Assembly: GCA_025450445.1 (NCBI GenBank) | Contig: JANWHN010000015.1 | Coordinates: forward strand, 1-46,109 | Length of the DNA stretch: 46,109 bases | Source of the DNA: Anaerolineales bacterium | Lineage (GTDB): Bacteria > Chloroflexota > Anaerolineae > Anaerolineales > UBA11579 | Direction of reading: 5' to 3' | In this document: positions 4,459-20,163 of the stretch, piece by piece | Layout of the letters: each line of letters starts with the position of its first letter | How positions within the stretch are numbered: the stretch's first letter is position 1 | The notes under the pieces: model-generated | What the model was told of the DNA's origin: nothing | The model's database searches: none | What the model saw: only the letters and a program-made list of their open reading frames with translations | Program-made: the position numbers and the translations under genes

Positions 4459-5180
4459 AAATCCACGTATTTGAAAATTCGGAAGCGCTGGCAGTCGGCG
4501 CGGCCGCACATTTCGCCGCGGCGGCTCACGCCGCGATTGAAGCGCGCGGGATTTTCAATGTTTCGCTTTCCGGTGGAACCACCCCGCGAGAAACCTACGA
4601 GCGGCTGGCCGCCGAGCCGTATCAATCTGAAATCGATTGGGCGCGTGTACATGTCTTTTGGGGCGACGAGCGTGCGGTTCCGCCAGACCATGCGGATAGC
4701 GATTTCGGGATGGCAAAGCACGCTCTGCTCGATCATGTTGTGATCCCTGAGGCGAATACTCATCGAATGCAAGGCGAATTGGACGCCAAGGAAGCCGCTG
4801 ACCGCTACGAGACTGAAATTAGAAATCATTTCAACTCAGCCGGAATTCCAAGCTTTGATTTTATTCTGCTCGGACTTGGTGAGGATGGGCACACGGCGTC
4901 GTTGTTTCCGGAAACCCAAGCCTTGAAGATTGAAGATCGTTTGGTCGCCGCAAATCACGTCCCCAGTTTAGATACTTGGCGAATCACTTACACATACCCC
5001 CTCATCAATGCTGCCCATCAAGTCGCGTTCTTGGTTGCAGGCGAGCGCAAAGCCAAAGTAGTGCAAGAAATTATTGAAGAAAAAAATTCGGAATATCCTG
5101 CTACTCATGTTTCCCCCAATACTGGCGAACTGCACTGGCTGTTGGATAAAGCCGCTGCCAGTTTGCTGAAATCTAGCTAG
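4455..5180 (+). CDS. pgl: 6-phosphogluconolactonase
   Basis: FNVSLSGGTTPRETYERLA, VHVFWGDERAVPPDHADSDFGM, ILLGLGEDGHTASLFPET motifs; 4-nt overlap with rpiA. Confidence 0.95.
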   Translation: MKIHVFENSEALAVGAAAHFAAAAHAAIEARGIFNVSLSGGTTPRETYERLAAEPYQSEIDWARVHVFWGDERAVPPDHADSDFGMAKHALLDHVVIPEANTHRMQGELDAKEAADRYETEIRNHFNSAGIPSFDFILLGLGEDGHTASLFPETQALKIEDRLVAANHVPSLDTWRITYTYPLINAAHQVAFLVAGERKAKVVQEIIEEKNSEYPATHVSPNTGELHWLLDKAAASLLKSS

Positions 5181-8118
5181 CCAGCGCCTGCGCAATTAGC
5201 GTCACGGGGTGCAGCGCTTCGCGCTGGGTGCCGGTCGCAATCTGGGCGCGACAGGAGACGCCGGCCGCGACCACGTGCTGGGCTTCGTCAGCGGCGCGGA
5301 CGGCCGGGAACAAAGCGATCTCGCCAATCTGCATGGAGAGATCGTAGTGCTCGGCCTCGTAGCCAAACGAACCAGCCATGCCACAGCAGCCCGAATTCAC
5401 GACTTCAACTTCGTAACCAAGAGCTGTTAGCAGCGCAGCCGTGGCGGCTGAGCCGGTGGGTAAGCCGTCATCGGCCGGCGGCTGGGCTTTCTGGTAACAA
5501 TGTCCGTGCAGCAAAACTTTTTTCGAGTCTGCAGACGTTTTGGTTTTTTGCTTTATCCTTTCAACTGGCGAATGACCATAATCGGGTTTGCGCAACAAGA
5601 ATTCATCGAGCATGAATGTGCGCTTCGCCAGGACGGCAACCCCAGGCTCGGTGGGCAGCAGATCCATGTATTCATCTTTGAGTGTGTAGATTTCTGAAGG
5701 CTCGATCCCAATGACTGGGAGTTCGCCCTTGGGATCCATTTTTTGGATCGCCTTCAGCACGCGGCGGGCATGTGCTTGAGCTTCTGCCAGAAAGCCTTTT
5801 GAAATTAGCGTCCGTCCACCGCCAACAACTGGCAGGACTGCAACGCGTAAACCCGCGGCTTCAAGCACCTTAAGCGCGGCCTTTGCGATCTCGGGATAGA
5901 AAAGTTCCGTAAATGGATCACGGAAGAAAAGCACATCCGCCGTTTGGGCCGGAACTCCTCGCAAGCTAGAGCTTCGCTTGAAGGCTGGCAACCCGCGCTT
6001 CGCCGAAAGCCCTACCAATCGCTCGCCCAGACTTTTACCCAGTTCGCTATGCAACATCCAGGTTGAGATGGGCGCGGCGGCTTGCCCCAATTTGCCAAGC
6101 GAGCCAATGAAGGCGAATAAATAGTCGCGCAGGGGTCGCCGATGGTTTTCGTAATACTTGTTCAAGAATTCATACTTCAGCTTGGCCATGTCAACGCCCG
6201 AAGGACATTCAGCTTTGCAGCCTTTGCACTCGAGACAGAGATCAAGGGCCGCGTGAGCAGCCTTCTGCGCGCCTTTATCGTCCGGCAAGCCGGTTGAGAT
6301 CATGGCGCGCAACAAATTTGCACGCCCGCGGGTGCTGTGCATTTCTTCGCGAGTGGCCTGGAAAGACGGGCACATCACGCCGCCGTCTTTGCGGCAGACG
6401 CCAGCGCCGTTGCACATTTCGATCGCCCCACCCAACCCGCCTTGGACAGAGAAATCGAGAATAGGAATCCATGGATCGGATTCGTAGCTGGGGCCAAAGC
6501 GCAGATTGGCATCCATGCGCGGCGGATCGATGACCTTGCCGGGGTTGAGTCGACCGTCAGGATCAGCGGCGGTCTTCAGCGAATCAAAGGCGCGAATGAT
6601 TTCGGGTCCGAAGGTCTCATCGAGCCATTCGCCGTGCGAAAGACCGTCGCCATGTTCACCGCTCATTGCGCCGCCATATTGCTTGGCGAGGGCCATCACA
6701 TCGCGAGTGATGCCGCGCATTTGCTCCACGCCACGGGCGGTCTTGAGATTTAGCAGCGGGCGCACGTGCAGACAGCCAGCAGACGCATGGGCGTAAAAAT
6801 CGCCACCGGTGCCGTGTTCAGCGAGGATGCGCTCAAAACCGCGCACAAATTCGCCAAGGTTTTCTACAGGAACAGCTATGTCCTCGATAAATGGCAGCGG
6901 CTTGGCATCGCCCGCGCGGGACATGAGCAAGCCGAGTCCGACTTTACGAACTGCCCAGACCTCGTCTTGCTCGGACTGACTGATCGCCCACACGGCATCA
7001 GCCCCAAGCAGCTTCAATTTGGATTTAAGCTCGCCAAGGTTTTCGCCGGCGAATTCAATGATCAAGATCGCGTCCGGGTCGCCCTTCACAAAGCCAAGCC
7101 GACGCGCATAAGCAGGCACGCTGCGCGCCAAGCGGATCATTGCTTGGGGGATCAATTCGATGGCGGACGGCTCAAGTTTGAGCAAGCTCGGCGCAGCATC
7201 GCAAGCCTCAGCGATGCTCGGATAAGAGAGCACGCCCAAGACTGTGAGCTTTGGCTTGGGAACCAGGCGAACCTTGATGCGTTTGAAGATGGCCAGCGTG
7301 CCTTCGGAGCCGACCAGCGCAGGGGCAAGGTTGATGGAATCAGATGCGATTGGAGGGTAAATGTCGCCTGCACCAGCGCGCGCCCACAAAGGCGGGCGAC
7401 TGGCGGACCAGGGCAGGAGATAGTTGAGGCTGTAACCTGAGGCACGGCGCCAGGTACGCGGCCAGTTGGCTTTGATGGCCGGCTCATATTGTTCGCGAAT
7501 GCTAAGAGCTTGACGATAAAGCTGGCCTTCGAGCGTGTCGCTTTCGGCGCGATTCAAAGCATCCCCAATCTTCATGCTCTCTAAGCGCACCGGAGAGCCG
7601 TCGGACAGCAACGCATCGACGGCGAGCACGTTGTCTGAGGTCATGCCGTAGCTGATCGAGTGCGCGCCGGTGGAGTTATTACCCAGCATGCCGCCGAAGG
7701 TAGCCCGATCCGCTGAAGCGGGATCGGGTCCGTACATTAGGCTATGTCGAGACGCGGCGCGATTGAAAGCATTCAGGACGAGACCGGGCTGAACCCATGC
7801 CCATCGTTCTTCCGGATTAATTTCTAGAACTTGATTCAAGTGACGCGAAAAATCAATAATGATCGCTGGCCCGATTACCTGCCCAGCCAAGCTGGTTCCT
7901 GAACCGCGCGGCAAAATGGGAATACCGTATTGCGCGGCTAGGTTAACCGTGGCGATCAGATCGTCTTCGTGGCGCGGGAATCCCGCCCCAAGCGGTTCAA
8001 TTTGATAAATAGATGCGTCGGTACTGTAGATCTTGCGGGTGGCTGCGTCTAGACGGAGATCGCCCGCGGATTGCTTGCGTAATTCGGCGACGAACTGCGT
8101 AAGCAGTTCGGCAGCCAT
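5173..8118 (-). CDS. FAD-binding oxidoreductase / D-lactate dehydrogenase-like protein with C-terminal Fe-S and CCG domains
   Basis: 981 aa; N-terminal FAD_binding_4 (LPRGSGTSLAGQVIGPAIIIDFSRH), FAD-oxidase C, CLECKGCKAECPS Fe-S motif, C-terminal GHCYQKA...NSGCCGMAGSFGYE. Confidence 0.92.
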   Translation of the reverse strand: MAAELLTQFVAELRKQSAGDLRLDAATRKIYSTDASIYQIEPLGAGFPRHEDDLIATVNLAAQYGIPILPRGSGTSLAGQVIGPAIIIDFSRHLNQVLEINPEERWAWVQPGLVLNAFNRAASRHSLMYGPDPASADRATFGGMLGNNSTGAHSISYGMTSDNVLAVDALLSDGSPVRLESMKIGDALNRAESDTLEGQLYRQALSIREQYEPAIKANWPRTWRRASGYSLNYLLPWSASRPPLWARAGAGDIYPPIASDSINLAPALVGSEGTLAIFKRIKVRLVPKPKLTVLGVLSYPSIAEACDAAPSLLKLEPSAIELIPQAMIRLARSVPAYARRLGFVKGDPDAILIIEFAGENLGELKSKLKLLGADAVWAISQSEQDEVWAVRKVGLGLLMSRAGDAKPLPFIEDIAVPVENLGEFVRGFERILAEHGTGGDFYAHASAGCLHVRPLLNLKTARGVEQMRGITRDVMALAKQYGGAMSGEHGDGLSHGEWLDETFGPEIIRAFDSLKTAADPDGRLNPGKVIDPPRMDANLRFGPSYESDPWIPILDFSVQGGLGGAIEMCNGAGVCRKDGGVMCPSFQATREEMHSTRGRANLLRAMISTGLPDDKGAQKAAHAALDLCLECKGCKAECPSGVDMAKLKYEFLNKYYENHRRPLRDYLFAFIGSLGKLGQAAAPISTWMLHSELGKSLGERLVGLSAKRGLPAFKRSSSLRGVPAQTADVLFFRDPFTELFYPEIAKAALKVLEAAGLRVAVLPVVGGGRTLISKGFLAEAQAHARRVLKAIQKMDPKGELPVIGIEPSEIYTLKDEYMDLLPTEPGVAVLAKRTFMLDEFLLRKPDYGHSPVERIKQKTKTSADSKKVLLHGHCYQKAQPPADDGLPTGSAATAALLTALGYEVEVVNSGCCGMAGSFGYEAEHYDLSMQIGEIALFPAVRAADEAQHVVAAGVSCRAQIATGTQREALHPVTLIAQALAS

Positions 8119-11810: not shown

Positions 11811-13190
11811 TTAGAGTGTGGCCAGCTCAGCTGTTTGAGAAATGTTCAAATAATTATCCAGGTCTTGCAACGAGCGCTCTGCGTAAGCGCGGGCGCGGTT
11901 TCGGCGACCTAGCCGATCGCCATCGACCAATGGCGGCAGAATGCCAAAGTTGGCTTTCATCGGTTGGAAATCGGCTTCGATGGCGTGGGTCACGTAATGA
12001 CAGAGCGCGCCTAGCATAGTGGTGGCGGGTAACTCGAGCATCGGCTCGCCAGCGTGCAGGCGGGCTGCGTTCAGTCCAGCCAGCAAACCCGTCGCTACGT
12101 TGCCGATGTAGCCTTCGACCCCGGTGATCTGGCCCGCGAAAAAAAGATCGGGGCGTTCTCGGAACTGCAGAGTTGGATTCAGTAATTTTGGCGAATGAAT
12201 GAATGTGTTGCGGTGCATCTGGCCGTAGCGCTCGAAGTTGGCGTTCTCCAAGCCGGGAATCATGCGGAAGACACGTTTTTGCTCGGGAAATTTCAAATTG
12301 GTTTGAAAGCCGACGAGGTTATAAAGTGTGCCCGCTAAATTATCTTGACGCAATTGCAAGACCGCATGTGGGCGACGACCCGTGCGCGGATCGCGCAAAC
12401 CGATGGGACGCATGGGGCCAAATGCCAACGACTCGAGACCGCGATCGGCAATGATCTCGATGGGCAAGCAGCCTTCAAAGAATTCATGTAGACCGGCGCG
12501 AACGCCCTCTTTGAGCTGATGCTCAAATTCACGCAGCTCGATGCGCTCGGCGGTCAACAGCGCGGCGACTAAGGCCTCGTATTCTTCTTTCGTAAACGGG
12601 CAATTGATGTAGTCGCCGAGTTCCTCGTCTCCGCGGCCGTAGCGCGAAGCGCGGTAAGCGATGTCCATGTTGACGGAGTCGAGGCTGACGATAGGAGAAA
12701 TTGCGTCGAAGAAATAGAGATGCTCTTCACCGCTTAGTTTTGCGATAGCGTCGGAAAGTTTGGATGACGTCAACGGACCAGAAGCGATGATGGTTAAGCC
12801 ATCAGGGATCTCGGGCATTTCTTCGCGGATCAATTCAATATTGGGATGCGCCTCGATGTGGCGAGTGACCTCGGCGGCAAAGCCTTCACGGTCGACGGCC
12901 AGCGCGCCGCCGGCTGGCACGGCGGTTTCTTCGGCTACGCCCAGCAGCAAAGAATTCAAGCGGCGAAGTTCGTTTTTGAGCAGCCCGGAGGCGCGGTCGG
13001 GGAGGTCTGAGCCGAGGGAATTGGAACAGACGAGCTCGGCGAGGTCGTGAGACACATGGGCGCCGGTTTGAAGCTTGGGGCGCATCTCGTAGAGACCGAC
13101 CTGCAGTCCGCGTTCAGCCGCCTGCCAGGCAGCCTCGCTGCCGGCTAAGCCGCCGCCGACTACGGTCAGATTGGCTTTTTTTACGGGCAT
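11811..13190 (-). CDS. trmFO: Methylenetetrahydrofolate-tRNA-(uracil-5-)-methyltransferase (FADH2-oxidising)
   Basis: [50 protein letters not shown] motifs. Confidence 0.96.
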
Positions 13191-13213: not shown

Positions 13214-13228
13214 TGGCACAGAACTTGC
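13214..13228 (+). promoter_or_regulatory. Candidate sigma-54 (-24/-12) promoter of rpoN
   Basis: TGGCACAGAACTTGC fits the TGGCAC-N5-TTGC core with correct GG/GC spacing, 38 bp upstream of the rpoN ATG at 13267. Confidence 0.8.
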
Positions 13229-13266
13229 ATCGTGGAGGACACTTCTCTATACTTCAGGAGCAAAAA

Positions 13267-14670
13267 ATGGCCCTCTCACAAGGTTTCATCCAAGGTGCAA
13301 GCCAACGACCACAGACCACTGCCCACCTGGCGCAGACCATGAGCCTGTTGGGTTTGAATGCCCAGGAGCTTAGCCAAAAGATCGAGGCGGCGCTGGCAGC
13401 GAATCCGGCGCTGGAATTGCTGGAGGGGCGACACTGCCCCACCTGCGGACGGCATTTGCGCAAGGAAAGCTTTTGCTCGACTTGCAACAAGGGTGCTGCC
13501 AAAGGCGATGAGCCGCTTGTTTTTATTTCTCCGCCGGAAGAAAATTTTGGGCGACTAAGCCGCAGCGGCGAAGAGCTGCCCGAAGATTACAGCGGTGCGC
13601 AGCCCGAAAATTTGGCCGGCTATGTGCTTGGCCAGATCGCGGCTGAACTGAACGCAAAGGAACAAGAAATCGCGGCGCATATTCTTACGAGCCTTGACGA
13701 TGATGGCTTACTAACCATTCCGCTCACCGAAGTTGCGCGTTTCCATCATGTGACGATCGATGAGGTCGAAGCTGTCGCAGATCTGATCCATCACGCAGAT
13801 CCGCTTGGCGTGGGCGCAAGCTCCACGACCGAAGCATTGCTGATCCAACTAGAAACCTTGGCGGAGCAAGCTCCCAATCAAGAATTGTGCGCCAAGGCAA
13901 TTCGCGAAGGCATGGGCATTCTCAGCAAAAAGCAATATGCTGAGCTTGGTCTTTTGCTGGGGATCAGCAAGACCAAAGCTCAGCAGATCGCGGAATTCAT
14001 TACAAGCAACCTCAGCCCATTCCCTGCCCGCGCTCATTGGGGCAGCCTCCGCACACCGAACATGGATTCTCCGAGGGCTTATCAGAAAGCCGACATCATC
14101 GTGCGCCGGCAGGATGACGGCCGACTGATGGTGGAGGTGATGTGGCCTCTGCGCGGATTACTGCGCGTGAACCCGCTCTTCCAACAAGCCTTGCGCGAAG
14201 CCCCAGAAGATAAGGCCGAGGAATGGAAAGTTGACCTGGAACAAGCCAATTTGCTGATCAAATGCCTGGCGCAACGTAATCACACGATCGTGCGCCTGAT
14301 GCAGATCCTGGCTGTGCTTCAAAAGAAATTTATCTTAAGCGGCGACGCGCACCTCAAGCCATTCACTCGTGCTTCCATCGCGGATGAGCTCGGCGTGCAC
14401 GAATCGACCATTTCACGAGCGGTAGCAAGCAAATCGGTGCAGTTACCATCGGGCAAAATCGTCCCACTCGCGCAGTTCTTCGACCGCAGCTTGCATATTC
14501 GCACTGCCTTGAAGAAGATCGTGAAAGACGAACCCAAGGCGCTGAGCGATACCAAGCTGGCTCGCCTGCTGGCAAAAGAAGGCCATCGTGTTGCGCGGCG
14601 TACTGTCGCAAAATATCGCACAATGGAGGGCATTCTGCCGGCGCATTTACGCAAAGCGCACGCAGCCTGA
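13267..14670 (+). CDS. rpoN: RNA polymerase sigma-54 factor with Cys4 (zinc-ribbon-like) insert
   Basis: Region I (TAHLAQTMSLLGLNAQELSQKIEAALAANPALELLE), HTH (RASIADELGVHESTISRAVASK), RpoN box (ARRTVAKYR). ATG at 13267 has AGGAG 6 nt upstream; the longer ORF start at 13213 is a GTG lying in the promoter. Confidence 0.95.
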   Translation: MALSQGFIQGASQRPQTTAHLAQTMSLLGLNAQELSQKIEAALAANPALELLEGRHCPTCGRHLRKESFCSTCNKGAAKGDEPLVFISPPEENFGRLSRSGEELPEDYSGAQPENLAGYVLGQIAAELNAKEQEIAAHILTSLDDDGLLTIPLTEVARFHHVTIDEVEAVADLIHHADPLGVGASSTTEALLIQLETLAEQAPNQELCAKAIREGMGILSKKQYAELGLLLGISKTKAQQIAEFITSNLSPFPARAHWGSLRTPNMDSPRAYQKADIIVRRQDDGRLMVEVMWPLRGLLRVNPLFQQALREAPEDKAEEWKVDLEQANLLIKCLAQRNHTIVRLMQILAVLQKKFILSGDAHLKPFTRASIADELGVHESTISRAVASKSVQLPSGKIVPLAQFFDRSLHIRTALKKIVKDEPKALSDTKLARLLAKEGHRVARRTVAKYRTMEGILPAHLRKAHAA

Positions 14671-14675
14671 CCTAA

Positions 14676-16646
14676 ATGACCTTATCCGGCATCAGCGATC
14701 TGCCGCTGTTCAAGCGGCGCAGCCAATCGGCAGAAGAGTTCGAATCTCTGCTTGATTTGCTGCCCCACCCCACGCTGATCGCAGATAGCCGAACCGGCCG
14801 CGTATTGTTGGCCAACACGCGCGCCATCCAGCTGACCGCATATACACGCAAAGAATTTGCCGAGCTGGAGCTCAATACCTTGCTGCCAGATTTCCCGATC
14901 GAAGCCCTAAACAAAAAGAAGTCTCGCAACGGCGCCGGGGAAACGTTGGTAAAGCGCAACAGCCGGTCGCTGCAGGTTGCAATCAGCATTGACCCGCTCA
15001 GTGGGAGTGAAAACTGGGTAGCCATTTCGCTCCAACCTTTTTCCAATCTGGCCGAAATTGAAGACCGAGAAGCGCAGGACAAGCAGCGTTGGGAAGCCAT
15101 GCATATCCTATCACTTGCGATGCAGCAAGACGAGCTTTCTTCGAGCTATCGACAGATATTGCAAGCCGGGACCTTGCTGACGGGAGCAAAGCATTTATTG
15201 CTTTACGCCACTTCGGCGGATGGCAAACTCAAGTTAGAATCTGTGAGCGGAAGCGGGGTCGAATTCCCTACCGAATTATCGGAGGCTGACCTCGCCCATT
15301 TGCGCACACCGAAGATCTGGAAAGCCGGGAAGCCGCTGGACACTGCGCTGCACAAAGCCGCCCATGCAGCCAAGCTGAACTATTTGTCCAGCACTCCATT
15401 GGACCTCACGCAGCCAGAAACCGGGCTGCTGATCGCGGCGGACGAAGAGGCAACCCCACCTAATGATTTGTTGACCATGCTGCAGATCCTGGCGGCCAGC
15501 GCTGCTACTGCTGGATTGTCGGCGGAGGTGGCTTCCCGACTCAGTCAGCAGGTGGTTGGGCTGAGCCAGAGCGCCCAACTCGGGACAGCTCTCCAGCAGA
15601 ATGTCCAAGATGGGCTTGTCTTTGCAGACCCGAAGCTGAAGATAACCGGGATTAATCCCGCCGCAGCAATGATGCTTGGCTACAGCGAAGCTGAGGTGGC
15701 CGGGCGCCCGGTGGCGGATGTTTTGATCAGCAACCAAAGCCTACTGCCTAATTTAGAAAAGGCTGCACGGGACGGAAAATTTATTGAGCTCGGCGAGCTA
15801 AAACTTCATCGGCGCGATGGCGTTGAATTTTTGGCGTCATTGCGCCTGGCACCGATCACGCTCGACAGCAAGGTGGAGAAAGTAGCTATTTTGGTAAATG
15901 ATCTCAGCGAACAAGAAGCGCTCCACATCCGTAGCCAGCAATTGCAGCAGCGCGCCTGGCTGGGCGAAGTGACCGCAATCTTTGCGCACGAAGTGCGCAA
16001 CCCGATCTACAACATCAGCACCGGCTTGCAGCTAATGCAGATCAGCTTGCCGGAGCAAGACCCGATGCAGGAGCAGATCAAAAAGCTGCAGGAAGACTGT
16101 GACCGGCTCGAGCACCGGATGAAGTCAGTGCTCAGCTTCTCGCGCAGTTTAGATCATGACCCAGAGCCGATGGACATCGGCGAGTTTTGCAAACTGCAGA
16201 TCGAGCGCTGGCGGCCACGGATGGCTAGCAAGGGCATCAAGGACAACATCCAGGTCGCTGCGAAGACGCCGCAAGTTTACGGCGATCGACGCGCACTCGA
16301 CCAGGTCTTTACCAACCTGATCACTAACGCAATCCAAGCCATGGAAGACCAGGAGAACGGCTTTCTGGCGGTCAAGATCGCGCCGACGCCAGATGAACCG
16401 GGGCTTGTGGACATCCATATTTCCGACAACGGGCCTGGCGTACCTGAAGACTTGCGCAAACGCGTCTTCGACCCATTTTTCACGACGAAAGAAGAGGAAG
16501 GCACGGGACTAGGTTTGGCGATCACGCGCCGCATCATCATGGCTCACAACGGGAACATCGAATTGGAATCATTCCCCGGTGGAACTCTGTTCAAGATCCA
16601 GTTGCCAGTGGCCCGTGCCATCTCAACCGAAGGGACGAACGCCTAA
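14676..16646 (+). CDS. PAS/GAF/PAS sensor histidine kinase, no obvious transmembrane segment
   Basis: H-box FAHEVRNPIYNISTG; ATPase motifs NLITNAIQAM, DNGPGVPEDLRKRVFDPFFTTKEEEGTGLGLAI. Confidence 0.92.
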   Translation: MTLSGISDLPLFKRRSQSAEEFESLLDLLPHPTLIADSRTGRVLLANTRAIQLTAYTRKEFAELELNTLLPDFPIEALNKKKSRNGAGETLVKRNSRSLQVAISIDPLSGSENWVAISLQPFSNLAEIEDREAQDKQRWEAMHILSLAMQQDELSSSYRQILQAGTLLTGAKHLLLYATSADGKLKLESVSGSGVEFPTELSEADLAHLRTPKIWKAGKPLDTALHKAAHAAKLNYLSSTPLDLTQPETGLLIAADEEATPPNDLLTMLQILAASAATAGLSAEVASRLSQQVVGLSQSAQLGTALQQNVQDGLVFADPKLKITGINPAAAMMLGYSEAEVAGRPVADVLISNQSLLPNLEKAARDGKFIELGELKLHRRDGVEFLASLRLAPITLDSKVEKVAILVNDLSEQEALHIRSQQLQQRAWLGEVTAIFAHEVRNPIYNISTGLQLMQISLPEQDPMQEQIKKLQEDCDRLEHRMKSVLSFSRSLDHDPEPMDIGEFCKLQIERWRPRMASKGIKDNIQVAAKTPQVYGDRRALDQVFTNLITNAIQAMEDQENGFLAVKIAPTPDEPGLVDIHISDNGPGVPEDLRKRVFDPFFTTKEEEGTGLGLAITRRIIMAHNGNIELESFPGGTLFKIQLPVARAISTEGTNA

Positions 16647-17830
16647 TGGCCTTATCTGTACTGGTGGTCGATGACGAGAAGAACGCACGCGAAAACATTG
16701 CGGCGTTCTTGAAGAAAAAAGACTACGAAGTTCTGGAAGCAAGCAGTATCAAAGACGCAAAAAAAGTAATAGCTCAAGGCAGTGCCGACTTGGTGCTGCT
16801 CGATGTGCAACTGCTTGATGGGCTTGGCACTACCCTCCTTGCGGAAAGCGCAGGCGCTGCCGGTCGACCCCCGATTATTCTAATCACCGCTCATGGCGAC
16901 ATCGACATGGCCGTGGAAGCAATGAAGAACGGCGCCCACGACTTTTTGCAAAAACCGATCAAGTTCGACCGACTGGAGCAATCGATCAAGCGAGCGGGCA
17001 AGAGCGTAGCCATGCGCCGCGAGCTCAACCATTTACGCCAAACCCAGCAAGGCGACTTCGTGCTGGGCAACAGCAAGCAAATGAAGTCGCTACTGGCGCA
17101 AGCCGAACGGGCCGCGCAAACAGCCGTATCCGTGCTGATTACCGGTGAAACAGGCACTGGGAAAGAGGTGCTGGCGCAGGCAATCCATCGTATGGGCACC
17201 CGCGCGGATAAGCCATTTATTGCAATCAACTGCGCAGCGATCCAGAGCACAGTCATTGAGTCGGAACTATTTGGGCACGAAGCTGGGGCATTTACTGGCG
17301 CCGACAAGCGCAAGACTGGTTTGATGGAAGTCGCCAACGACGGCATCCTTTTCCTCGACGAAATATCGTCGATGCCGGCCGACATGCAGGCCAAGCTTCT
17401 ACGCGCGCTCGAAGAGCGCGCCTTCCGCCGCATGGGCGGAACCACACTGATCAAGGTGGACGTGCAGATCCTGGCCGCCTCAAACCGCAATCTGAAATCA
17501 ATGATCGAAAAAGGTGAATTCCGGGATGATCTTTACTATCGACTCAAGGTCGTCGACCTGGATATGCCGGCGTTGCGCGATCGCAAGGAAGATATTTCTG
17601 AATTGGTTGGATTCTTTATTCATCAGAATAATCCGCGCATGGGCTTGAACATTCAGGATGTAACACCAAAAGCAATGGAAGCGCTTGCAGCCCACGATTG
17701 GCCAGGGAACATCCGTGAGTTGCGCAACATAATCGAGCGTGCTATGCTGTTTTGCGATGAGGCCGCGATCGATGTTGCCCATCTACCCGCTGAGCTTTTA
17801 AGCAATCCAAAGAAAGCCAAGAGCACCTAG
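16646..17830 (+). CDS. NtrC-family sigma-54-dependent response regulator (receiver + AAA+; no C-terminal Fis HTH visible)
   Basis: Receiver LVVDDEKNARENI...LVLLDVQLLDG; AAA+ TGETGTGKEV, ESELFGHEAGAFTGADKRKTG, LFLDEIS; ends ...HLPAELLSNPKKAKST. Confidence 0.95.
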   Translation: MALSVLVVDDEKNARENIAAFLKKKDYEVLEASSIKDAKKVIAQGSADLVLLDVQLLDGLGTTLLAESAGAAGRPPIILITAHGDIDMAVEAMKNGAHDFLQKPIKFDRLEQSIKRAGKSVAMRRELNHLRQTQQGDFVLGNSKQMKSLLAQAERAAQTAVSVLITGETGTGKEVLAQAIHRMGTRADKPFIAINCAAIQSTVIESELFGHEAGAFTGADKRKTGLMEVANDGILFLDEISSMPADMQAKLLRALEERAFRRMGGTTLIKVDVQILAASNRNLKSMIEKGEFRDDLYYRLKVVDLDMPALRDRKEDISELVGFFIHQNNPRMGLNIQDVTPKAMEALAAHDWPGNIRELRNIIERAMLFCDEAAIDVAHLPAELLSNPKKAKST

Positions 17831-17921
17831 CAGATATCCACTAACAGGGGATGCAAGGACGAATCGCGTTCCCATGATCCAGCTGCGAAAAATTTTTAGT
17901 CCCCCACCCTTTGCGGATTAA

Positions 17922-20163
17922 GAAGACCGCCGGATCGCCCTGCCTTTAAACATAATCCTTTGGCTTACCGGCCTGGTTGTAATCCTTTTCATCATCGCGA
18001 CCGCGTTGCTGCCGACCAGCCAGTACTTAGCCCTACCAATCGAATTTTCAATATTGGCTGTAATTGCTATTTGCTTGGTCTTGATGCACCGGGGTTTGCC
18101 ACGACTGTCTGGCTACCTGTTTACGATCTCGCTGTGGTTGCTGATCTCTGTTGCCACACTGTCTTACACGGAAATCACTAGCACCGGGGTTAGCAGCTTG
18201 TACACCGTAATTCTGATTGGGGGAATCCTGCTTGGATCATCCGGCAGTTTTCTGCTCGCCCTGCTTAGCACAATCGGCGTAGTCGCCAATGTATTCCTAA
18301 TGAGCTCGGCCAGAGGTGAACCAAGCCCGCCGCCGGATGCATGGATGCCGGCGATCACGGTGATCACAAATTTTATTTTGGTGGCAGTGGTGGCCTGGCT
18401 TGGTCGAAGGGCGGTGCTGAGCTCAGTGCAAGATATGCAGAGCAGCCGCTCTCTGCTCACCCACCGCAGCGCCCAGCTGCAGGCCGCGGCGGATATCGGT
18501 GCGGCTGCCAGCAGCAGCAAGGACCTGACGACGCTGGTGGAGACGATCACCGACGTAATCGCTGACCGGTTTGGCTTTTATCATGTCTCAAATTGACATA
18601 TGGAAAAGAACAGAACGCGCTCACATCGATCAGTCAGGGTGGCAAGAGGATCGCAGCACCGCCTAGCGTGCGGGATCTACAAGAAAACAAGCGCAGCATC
18701 GTTGCCAATGTAGCTCGAACACGCAAGCCGTATCTCGCCCGAGATGTGCAGACACCCCCAGCTGGAACAAACGCGGTCCGAACTTGCCATTCCGATTGTG
18801 GCCGGCGAAAAGTTGTTCGGTGTACTGGACGTGCTCAGTAACCAGGAAACCCCGCTAGGCAATGATGAGCTCAACGCTCTGCTAGTGCTGGTCAACCAAA
18901 TCGGGACTGCAATCGATAACAAACGGTTGCTGGACTCAGCCAGCCGGCATTTAGAGGAGTTGATCGCCCTGCACGCGATCGCTGCGGCCGGAACCGAAGC
19001 TGAAAGCGAGGATGAATTCCTGCGAAGGGCCACCCAGGTGGTCGGAAAATCCCTTTTCCCGACCAACTTCGGGGTGCTGCTGCTCGATGAAAAACAAGCG
19101 GTGCTAACGCATCACGCTTCTTACACTGAAAGTAAATCCAAAATCTCGCCGCCGATCCCGCTCGGTGAGGGTATCACCGGGATCGTCGCGCTCACAGGGG
19201 AACCGATGCGGGTAGCAGATGTCTCCGTAGAGCGGAAATATATTTAGATAGACGCACGTGTTCGGTCAGAGTTGTGCGTTCCACTCAAATCCGGGGACAA
19301 GGTTTTAGGGGTGCTGGATGTTGAGAGCTATACCGTCGACTCATTCAGCAAAGCAGATGAGCATTTGTTACTGGCACTAGCCGGACAGATCGCTACTTCG
19401 TTGGAGCGCATGCGCCTGTTCGCCGGCGCGCAGCAACGCGCCGAGGAGCTGGCCAATACAATCAAACAGCAGGAAGAACTGGCTCGGCTACGCGATGAAT
19501 TTATTCAGAATGTCTCGCATGAATTCCGCACGCCACTCTCGATCGTAGGCGGCTATGTTGAAATCCTTGATAGCGGGGAGTTCGGGCCCCCTTCCAGACG
19601 CTTATCGGCAACCGGTGGGAATCATTGCCAAACGGGTTCGTTTGCTCAGCAAGCTGGTCGAGGACCTGACATCATTCCTGGATCTGCAAAAACGCGGCGA
19701 CTTCCGGCCGCTGCGGCTGGGCGAAATGCTTCAGCCAATGTACGGCGGTTATCGCACCCGCGCCCTGGCAGAACGGATCGAGCTAAACATGGAAATCGAC
19801 AATGGGCTGCCAACGATCCGCGGCGAAGAGACATTGCTCTCCAAGGCGATCGATAACCTGGTGGACAATGCCATCAAATTCACTCCCCCGGATGGCAAGG
19901 TCGACATCCGCGTGCGCAGCGAGAACGGCTCCGTAATGCTCGAGGTAACCGATACCGGGATCGGGATTCCACAAGAACAGCAAGAGCACATCTTTGAGCG
20001 CTTCTATCAGGTGGACGGAAGCACCACGCGCAGCTTTGGCGGCACCGGGCTGGGTTTGGCTTTGGTGAAAGAAATTGTGGATTTGCATGGGGGACAAATA
20101 AGCGTAGGCAGCGAACCCGAAAAGGGCACGACCTTCATGATCAGCTTGCCAGCACTTAACTAA
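17922..20163 (+). pseudogene. Membrane GAF-domain sensor histidine kinase, disrupted (frameshifts, in-frame stop, apparent gaps)
   Basis: Homologous pieces in shifting frames: 18006-18596 (TM region to ...RFGFYHVSN*), 18593-~18760 (NVARTRKPYLARDVQ), 18744-19247 (GAF; TRSELAIPIVAGEKLFGVLDVLS), stop TAG near 19246, 19249-~19595 (NVSHEFRTPLSIVGGYVEIL), then another frame to 20163 (HATPase). Confidence 0.85.

Follow-up and report, generated by a model that had tools for sequence, protein, structure and literature searches.

How the level of sigma-54 is set, and which form of RNA polymerase transcribes its gene, are questions raised by the rpoN locus of an Anaerolineales bacterium, which lies in a contig stretch of 46,109 nucleotides (hereafter the window, meaning the whole stretch of DNA analysed). 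Sigma-54 is usually a shared platform that is read by many DNA-bound activators, and the closed complexes formed by its holoenzyme (E-sigma-54) do not open without an AAA+ activator. A first-pass annotation of the window had proposed that rpoN is transcribed from its own sigma-54 promoter. A 2025 comparison of sigma-54 regulons across 33 classes leaves Chloroflexota unmentioned in its main text (PMC12316311), an earlier survey recorded sigma-54 in some Chloroflexi (PMC3162934), and our literature search on sigma-54 in this phylum gave no study of the rpoN-kinase-activator system described here.

The rpoN gene (13267..14670, forward strand) encodes a sigma-54 protein of 467 amino acids, recognised by its Pfam activator-interacting, core-binding and DNA-binding domains (AID, CBD and DBD), by matches to sigma-54 structures in the PDB, and by the RpoN box ARRTVAKYR. 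Since the Pfam activator-interacting domain begins at residue 12 when numbered from ATG 13267, and the congeners share the same start point, this ATG is the start codon; it is preceded by an AGGAG ribosome-binding site (13256..13260, forward). The longest open reading frame begins further upstream at GTG 13213, on the promoter, as the first-pass annotation had pointed out, and this codon is ruled out as the rpoN start by the relatives and by Pfam. Within the protein, residues 57-73 (CPTCGRHLRKESFCSTC, window 13435-13485) form a CxxC-x9-CxxC pattern between the activator-interacting and core-binding domains, possibly a zinc knuckle. The pattern recurs in 67/67 rows of the order (one of them a duplicate) and at 25 of 32 other loci of the class, and the best-matching solved sigma-54, 8f1i, lacks cysteines at this position.

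Upstream of the start codon lies the sigma-54 -24/-12 element TGGCACAGAACTTGCA (13214..13229, forward), a perfect match to TGGCACRNNNNTTGCW. Its core, TGGCACAGAACTTGC at 13214-13228 (forward), has GG at 13215-13216 and GC at 13227-13228, which is the exact -24/-12 spacing, and the ATG follows 38 bp downstream, so that both the core and its position before an ATG with AGGAG agree with the first reading of this DNA. The sigma-54 transcript is predicted to start near 13240. No other perfect match to TGGCACRNNNNTTGCW occurs in the window. With up to two mismatches, 22 matches were found against 16.2 expected, which is not an enrichment; thus, only near-perfect matches are informative, and counts at this tolerance, being close to background, were set aside. 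The earlier impression that no other intergenic region holds a comparable element stands for perfect matches, and a one-mismatch site at 12915 is antisense within the divergent gene. That gene, GidA/TrmFO-like (11811..13190, reverse; open reading frame and Pfam PF01134), starts 23 bp upstream of the element, and hence the usual enhancer zone is coding. A role of the element in serving the divergent gene is excluded by its orientation.

The genes rpoN, a PAS histidine kinase and an NtrC-like sigma-54 activator follow one another in this order as a tightly packed operon, the third gene of which supplies the activator left unnamed in the first-pass annotation. The kinase (14676..16646, forward) carries Pfam PAS, HisKA and HATPase_c domains and the H-box FAHEVRNP, and looks soluble, with no strongly hydrophobic segment. 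The activator (16646..17830, forward) possesses a receiver and an AAA+ domain with GAFTGA, as in FlgR and CtcC, and, like these, has no C-terminal DNA-binding domain: judged by Pfam and by comparison of its C-terminus with relatives, the protein stops after the AAA+ lid. About 4% of sigma-54 activators are without a DNA-binding and/or signal domain, CtcC and FlgR being the named cases without the former (PMC3162934). In every locus of the order with a complete activator gene, an activator of 385-410 residues without a helix-turn-helix (HTH) is found in the same operon. The window's activator is the only protein with a strong PF00158 match in its assembly (1.64 Mb, 68% complete), and five congeners, 93-96% complete, have exactly one strong match apiece; their other PF00158 hits (about 20-34 bits, in long open frames mostly above 800 residues) look like unrelated AAA+ proteins. 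Among six further order mates, five yielded one strong match and G203 a second one. Directly after the activator gene, at 17840-20163, a sensor-kinase-like region is broken into several open reading frames by stops or frame changes, with 31 stops in one frame, and is either a decayed gene or an assembly error.

To follow the element beyond the window, rpoN loci were collected across the class and the order, the order set comprising 66 distinct loci from ten families, and elements were scored in the roughly 140 bp that precede rpoN by a matrix approximated from the published consensus (cut-off score at least 12.9). The element is present at 64/66 rpoN loci of the order, compared with 1.3% of random 245-bp windows from the same loci, and is missing from two. 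Conservation of the two dinucleotides among orthologues had been named as a check in the first-pass annotation, and in the 64 aligned loci GG never varies and the positions of GC are 98-100% conserved. In most of these loci the element lies about 40-65 bp before the rpoN start. Its near-consensus form at the fixed spacing and its conservation upstream of orthologues strongly support a sigma-54 promoter before rpoN, and the element is almost certainly genuine and under selection. Beyond the order, element and HTH-less activator occur together in the f57 pair, and f29 and f37 combine the element with an activator whose HTH looks degenerate by eye, while sampled loci of f5, f9 and f28, whose homologues of the activator bear a Fis-like HTH, are without it. 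The element and activator labels cluster strongly when placed on a tree comprising 61 RpoN proteins. The pairing of element and HTH-less activator is an association that involves few independent events and is not causal proof.

When the promoters of the order were aligned on the element, a second conserved feature emerged, TATAAT or TATACT. In the window's family (f1), and in f3 and f66, this hexamer stands 17 bp (rarely 16, once 21) after TTGCAn, so that its TTGC belongs to the -12 element and at the same time takes the -35 position. In the window, TTGCAT (13225..13230, forward) would be both the shared -12 element and a putative weak sigma-70 -35 box, and TATACT (13248..13253, forward) a putative -10 hexamer, with a predicted sigma-70 start near 13260. 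Across 39 promoters of the three families, conservation reaches 82-87% in five of the six columns of the hexamer, and the spacer is nearly information-free. TATACT is thus conserved at 17 bp, but the -35 box matches TTGACA at just 3/6 positions and a sigma-70 consensus scan reported no promoter; for this reason we infer the sigma-70-type promoter and derive its -10 from conservation alone. In f63 the distance from the element to the hexamer is mostly 28 bp, and a separate TTGCnn-like box lies about 17 bp before the hexamer; in f70 the hexamer is mostly 5 bp from the element and, where counted, 16 bp from TGGCAC. The spacing of the hexamer differs between families, and overlap or abutment with the element stays, so the element would overlap or abut a weak sigma-70-type promoter. 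Outside the order, f47 has a plain TTGACA-17-TATACT.

A -10 hexamer follows the element at 50/64 rpoN promoters, at 9/43 other sites and at 3/34 sites in related genomes before the small membrane gene, the core sigma-54 target (Fisher p 1.6e-11, an overstated value as the loci are related), and 14 of the 64 rpoN promoters have no clear one. In the window, a sigma-70 start near 13260 would fall inside AGGAG and a sigma-54 start near 13240 would retain it; relatives vary in this respect. At the flavin-reductase-like gene (L004; congener loci L342, L345, L351 and L359) the element is followed by TACAAT (gTTACAAT), and overlapping promoters may therefore not be confined to rpoN.

The further sigma-54 promoters of these genomes appear to be few. 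The pattern TGGCAYRNNNNTTGCA occurs 41 times in six order mates, compared with 5 for a reversed-pattern control, and 23 times in five congeners, compared with 3. Seven f2 genomes without an rpoN match hold 0-1 sites in four cases and 5-6 in three, so that a regulon cannot be defined by the pattern alone. Three f2 genomes without an rpoN match have a single FtsZ each. The whole assembly of the window (1.64 Mb, 68% complete) contains six perfect TGGCACRNNNNTTGCW matches, and for five of them congeners have a site at the orthologous gene; about 4-10 strong promoter matches are found per genome. The conserved targets, recognised by sequence only, are rpoN itself; a two-helix membrane protein of about 110 residues, usually encoded just downstream of the activator gene; an operon of a protein of about 430 residues (no Pfam match) and a second FtsZ, with an upstream site in 7/7 genomes examined; a flavin-reductase-like protein, named by eye; one protein that combines SH3 with SnoaL-like domains; and another that begins like a receiver, also named by eye. 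In the window's assembly the small membrane gene lies on another contig, behind CGGCACACTTCTTGCA, and in the order its element is mostly 42-59 bp before the start codon. Many of its promoters (e.g., L328, L331, L335 and L336) carry an inverted repeat CCTCC...GGAGG between element and start codon, the second arm of which is the ribosome-binding site; by our count the first arm would coincide with, or barely precede, the predicted start of the transcript, which makes an RNA hairpin uncertain. The operon of the second FtsZ and the protein of about 430 residues was observed behind a sigma-54 element in L264 (own contig C70:2000-12000, at 4814-7280) and in six order mates, and in several other families of the class (G072, G025, G060, G024, G100, G225 and G273) rpoN and a second FtsZ share one contig, about 14-24 kb apart.

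In view of this arrangement, we consider it probable that E-sigma-54 and the sigma-70 holoenzyme compete at a dual promoter of the rpoN operon. Because the sigma-54 promoter overlaps a putative sigma-70-type promoter, the two RNA polymerase holoenzymes should be mutually exclusive. Basal RpoN would be supplied by the sigma-70 holoenzyme. Once RpoN is present and the activator is unphosphorylated, E-sigma-54 would occupy the element in a silent closed complex and, by occlusion, lower basal transcription. Upon a signal, the co-encoded kinase would phosphorylate the co-encoded activator, which could then open the closed complex from solution, so that sigma-54 drives the operon and, with it, the small number of further sigma-54 promoters in the genome. 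Since the activator has no DNA-binding domain, it needs no enhancer, and for the same reason promoter choice via enhancers is impossible. More tentatively, this one activator may open all sigma-54 promoters, including that of rpoN, throughout the order, the -12 doubling as a -35; the operon would then flip between a self-limiting sigma-70 state and a self-amplifying sigma-54 state, and would launch a programme with a second FtsZ and envelope proteins.

Simpler accounts have to be weighed against the dual promoter. That the element is a chance match without function would fit the failure of looser matches to be enriched in the window, but its order-wide conservation in the same place and orientation, together with the excess of exact matches over the reversed control (41 to 5 and 23 to 3), makes this scarcely credible. 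Simple positive autoregulation is a more serious but still unlikely account, according to which the sigma-54 promoter drives the operon when activated, TATA[A/C]T is no working promoter, and basal RpoN comes from elsewhere. The strong element, the weak -35 and the promoters without a clear -10 are in its favour, yet several families have conserved the hexamer, with spacings that depend on the family, and pure sigma-54 promoters of the same clade seldom carry it; moreover, a promoter used by sigma-54 only would be unable to set the loop going. At the other extreme, the element might never fire and just let silent E-sigma-54 block the sigma-70 promoter. Such pure negative autoregulation accords with the overlap of the element with the -10/-35, with the repression of overlapping promoters by E. 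coli sigma-54 (PMC4551910) and with the negative autoregulation of rpoN in R. leguminosarum (PMC3538637). Nevertheless, the near-consensus -12 and the start-codon spacing resemble those of presumably productive promoters, the spacing being like that of the small membrane gene and thus as expected of a productive promoter, and any closed complex should be opened by an enhancer-free activator that the operon itself encodes; we regard this account as even less likely than positive autoregulation. The proposal that rpoN has its own sigma-54 promoter is accordingly upheld as to the element and its conservation, whereas its sole use, in view of the conserved -10 hexamer and the dual look of the promoter, and the positive sign of the control are not established.

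Several known systems share parts of this design. The Chlamydia CtcB-CtcC pair and Helicobacter FlgR likewise rely on an NtrC-kind sigma-54 activator without a DNA-binding domain (PMC3162934), and CtcC is the sole activator used with a sigma-54 regulon (PMC7482065). In contrast to these, rpoN, kinase and activator here form one operon behind a sigma-54 element, and in the literature we found no report of a self-controlled rpoN in either genus. In rhizobia, rpoN is controlled by its own product, as is predicted here: that of R. leguminosarum is subject to negative autoregulation, and in Mesorhizobium loti a potential NifA-regulated promoter located upstream of prxS precedes rpoN2 (PMC3538637). 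Those cases involve DNA-bound activators or an unstated mechanism, whereas the present one combines an overlapping promoter with an HTH-less activator in the same operon. In E. coli, sigma-54 polymerase represses sigma-70 promoters that it overlaps, a competition demonstrated in vitro (PMC4551910); there, the sigma-54 sites lie over sigma-70 promoters of scattered genes and the proof is experimental, while here the arrangement concerns rpoN itself, is conserved order-wide and is known from sequence alone. Within the open-access literature, we found no account of an rpoN operon that controls itself throughout an order and includes an HTH-less activator.

The sequence suggests a minimal form of sigma-54 control in a phylum in which this factor has been little studied, consisting of one kinase, one enhancer-free activator, few promoters and a sigma factor placed within its own loop. 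An rpoN promoter common to both forms of polymerase would explain, in a concrete and testable way, how the level of sigma-54 is determined and, if the autoregulation is true, it predicts a self-controlling, genome-wide switch. The second FtsZ and the two-helix membrane protein among its targets suggest a role of this switch in cell shape or the envelope.
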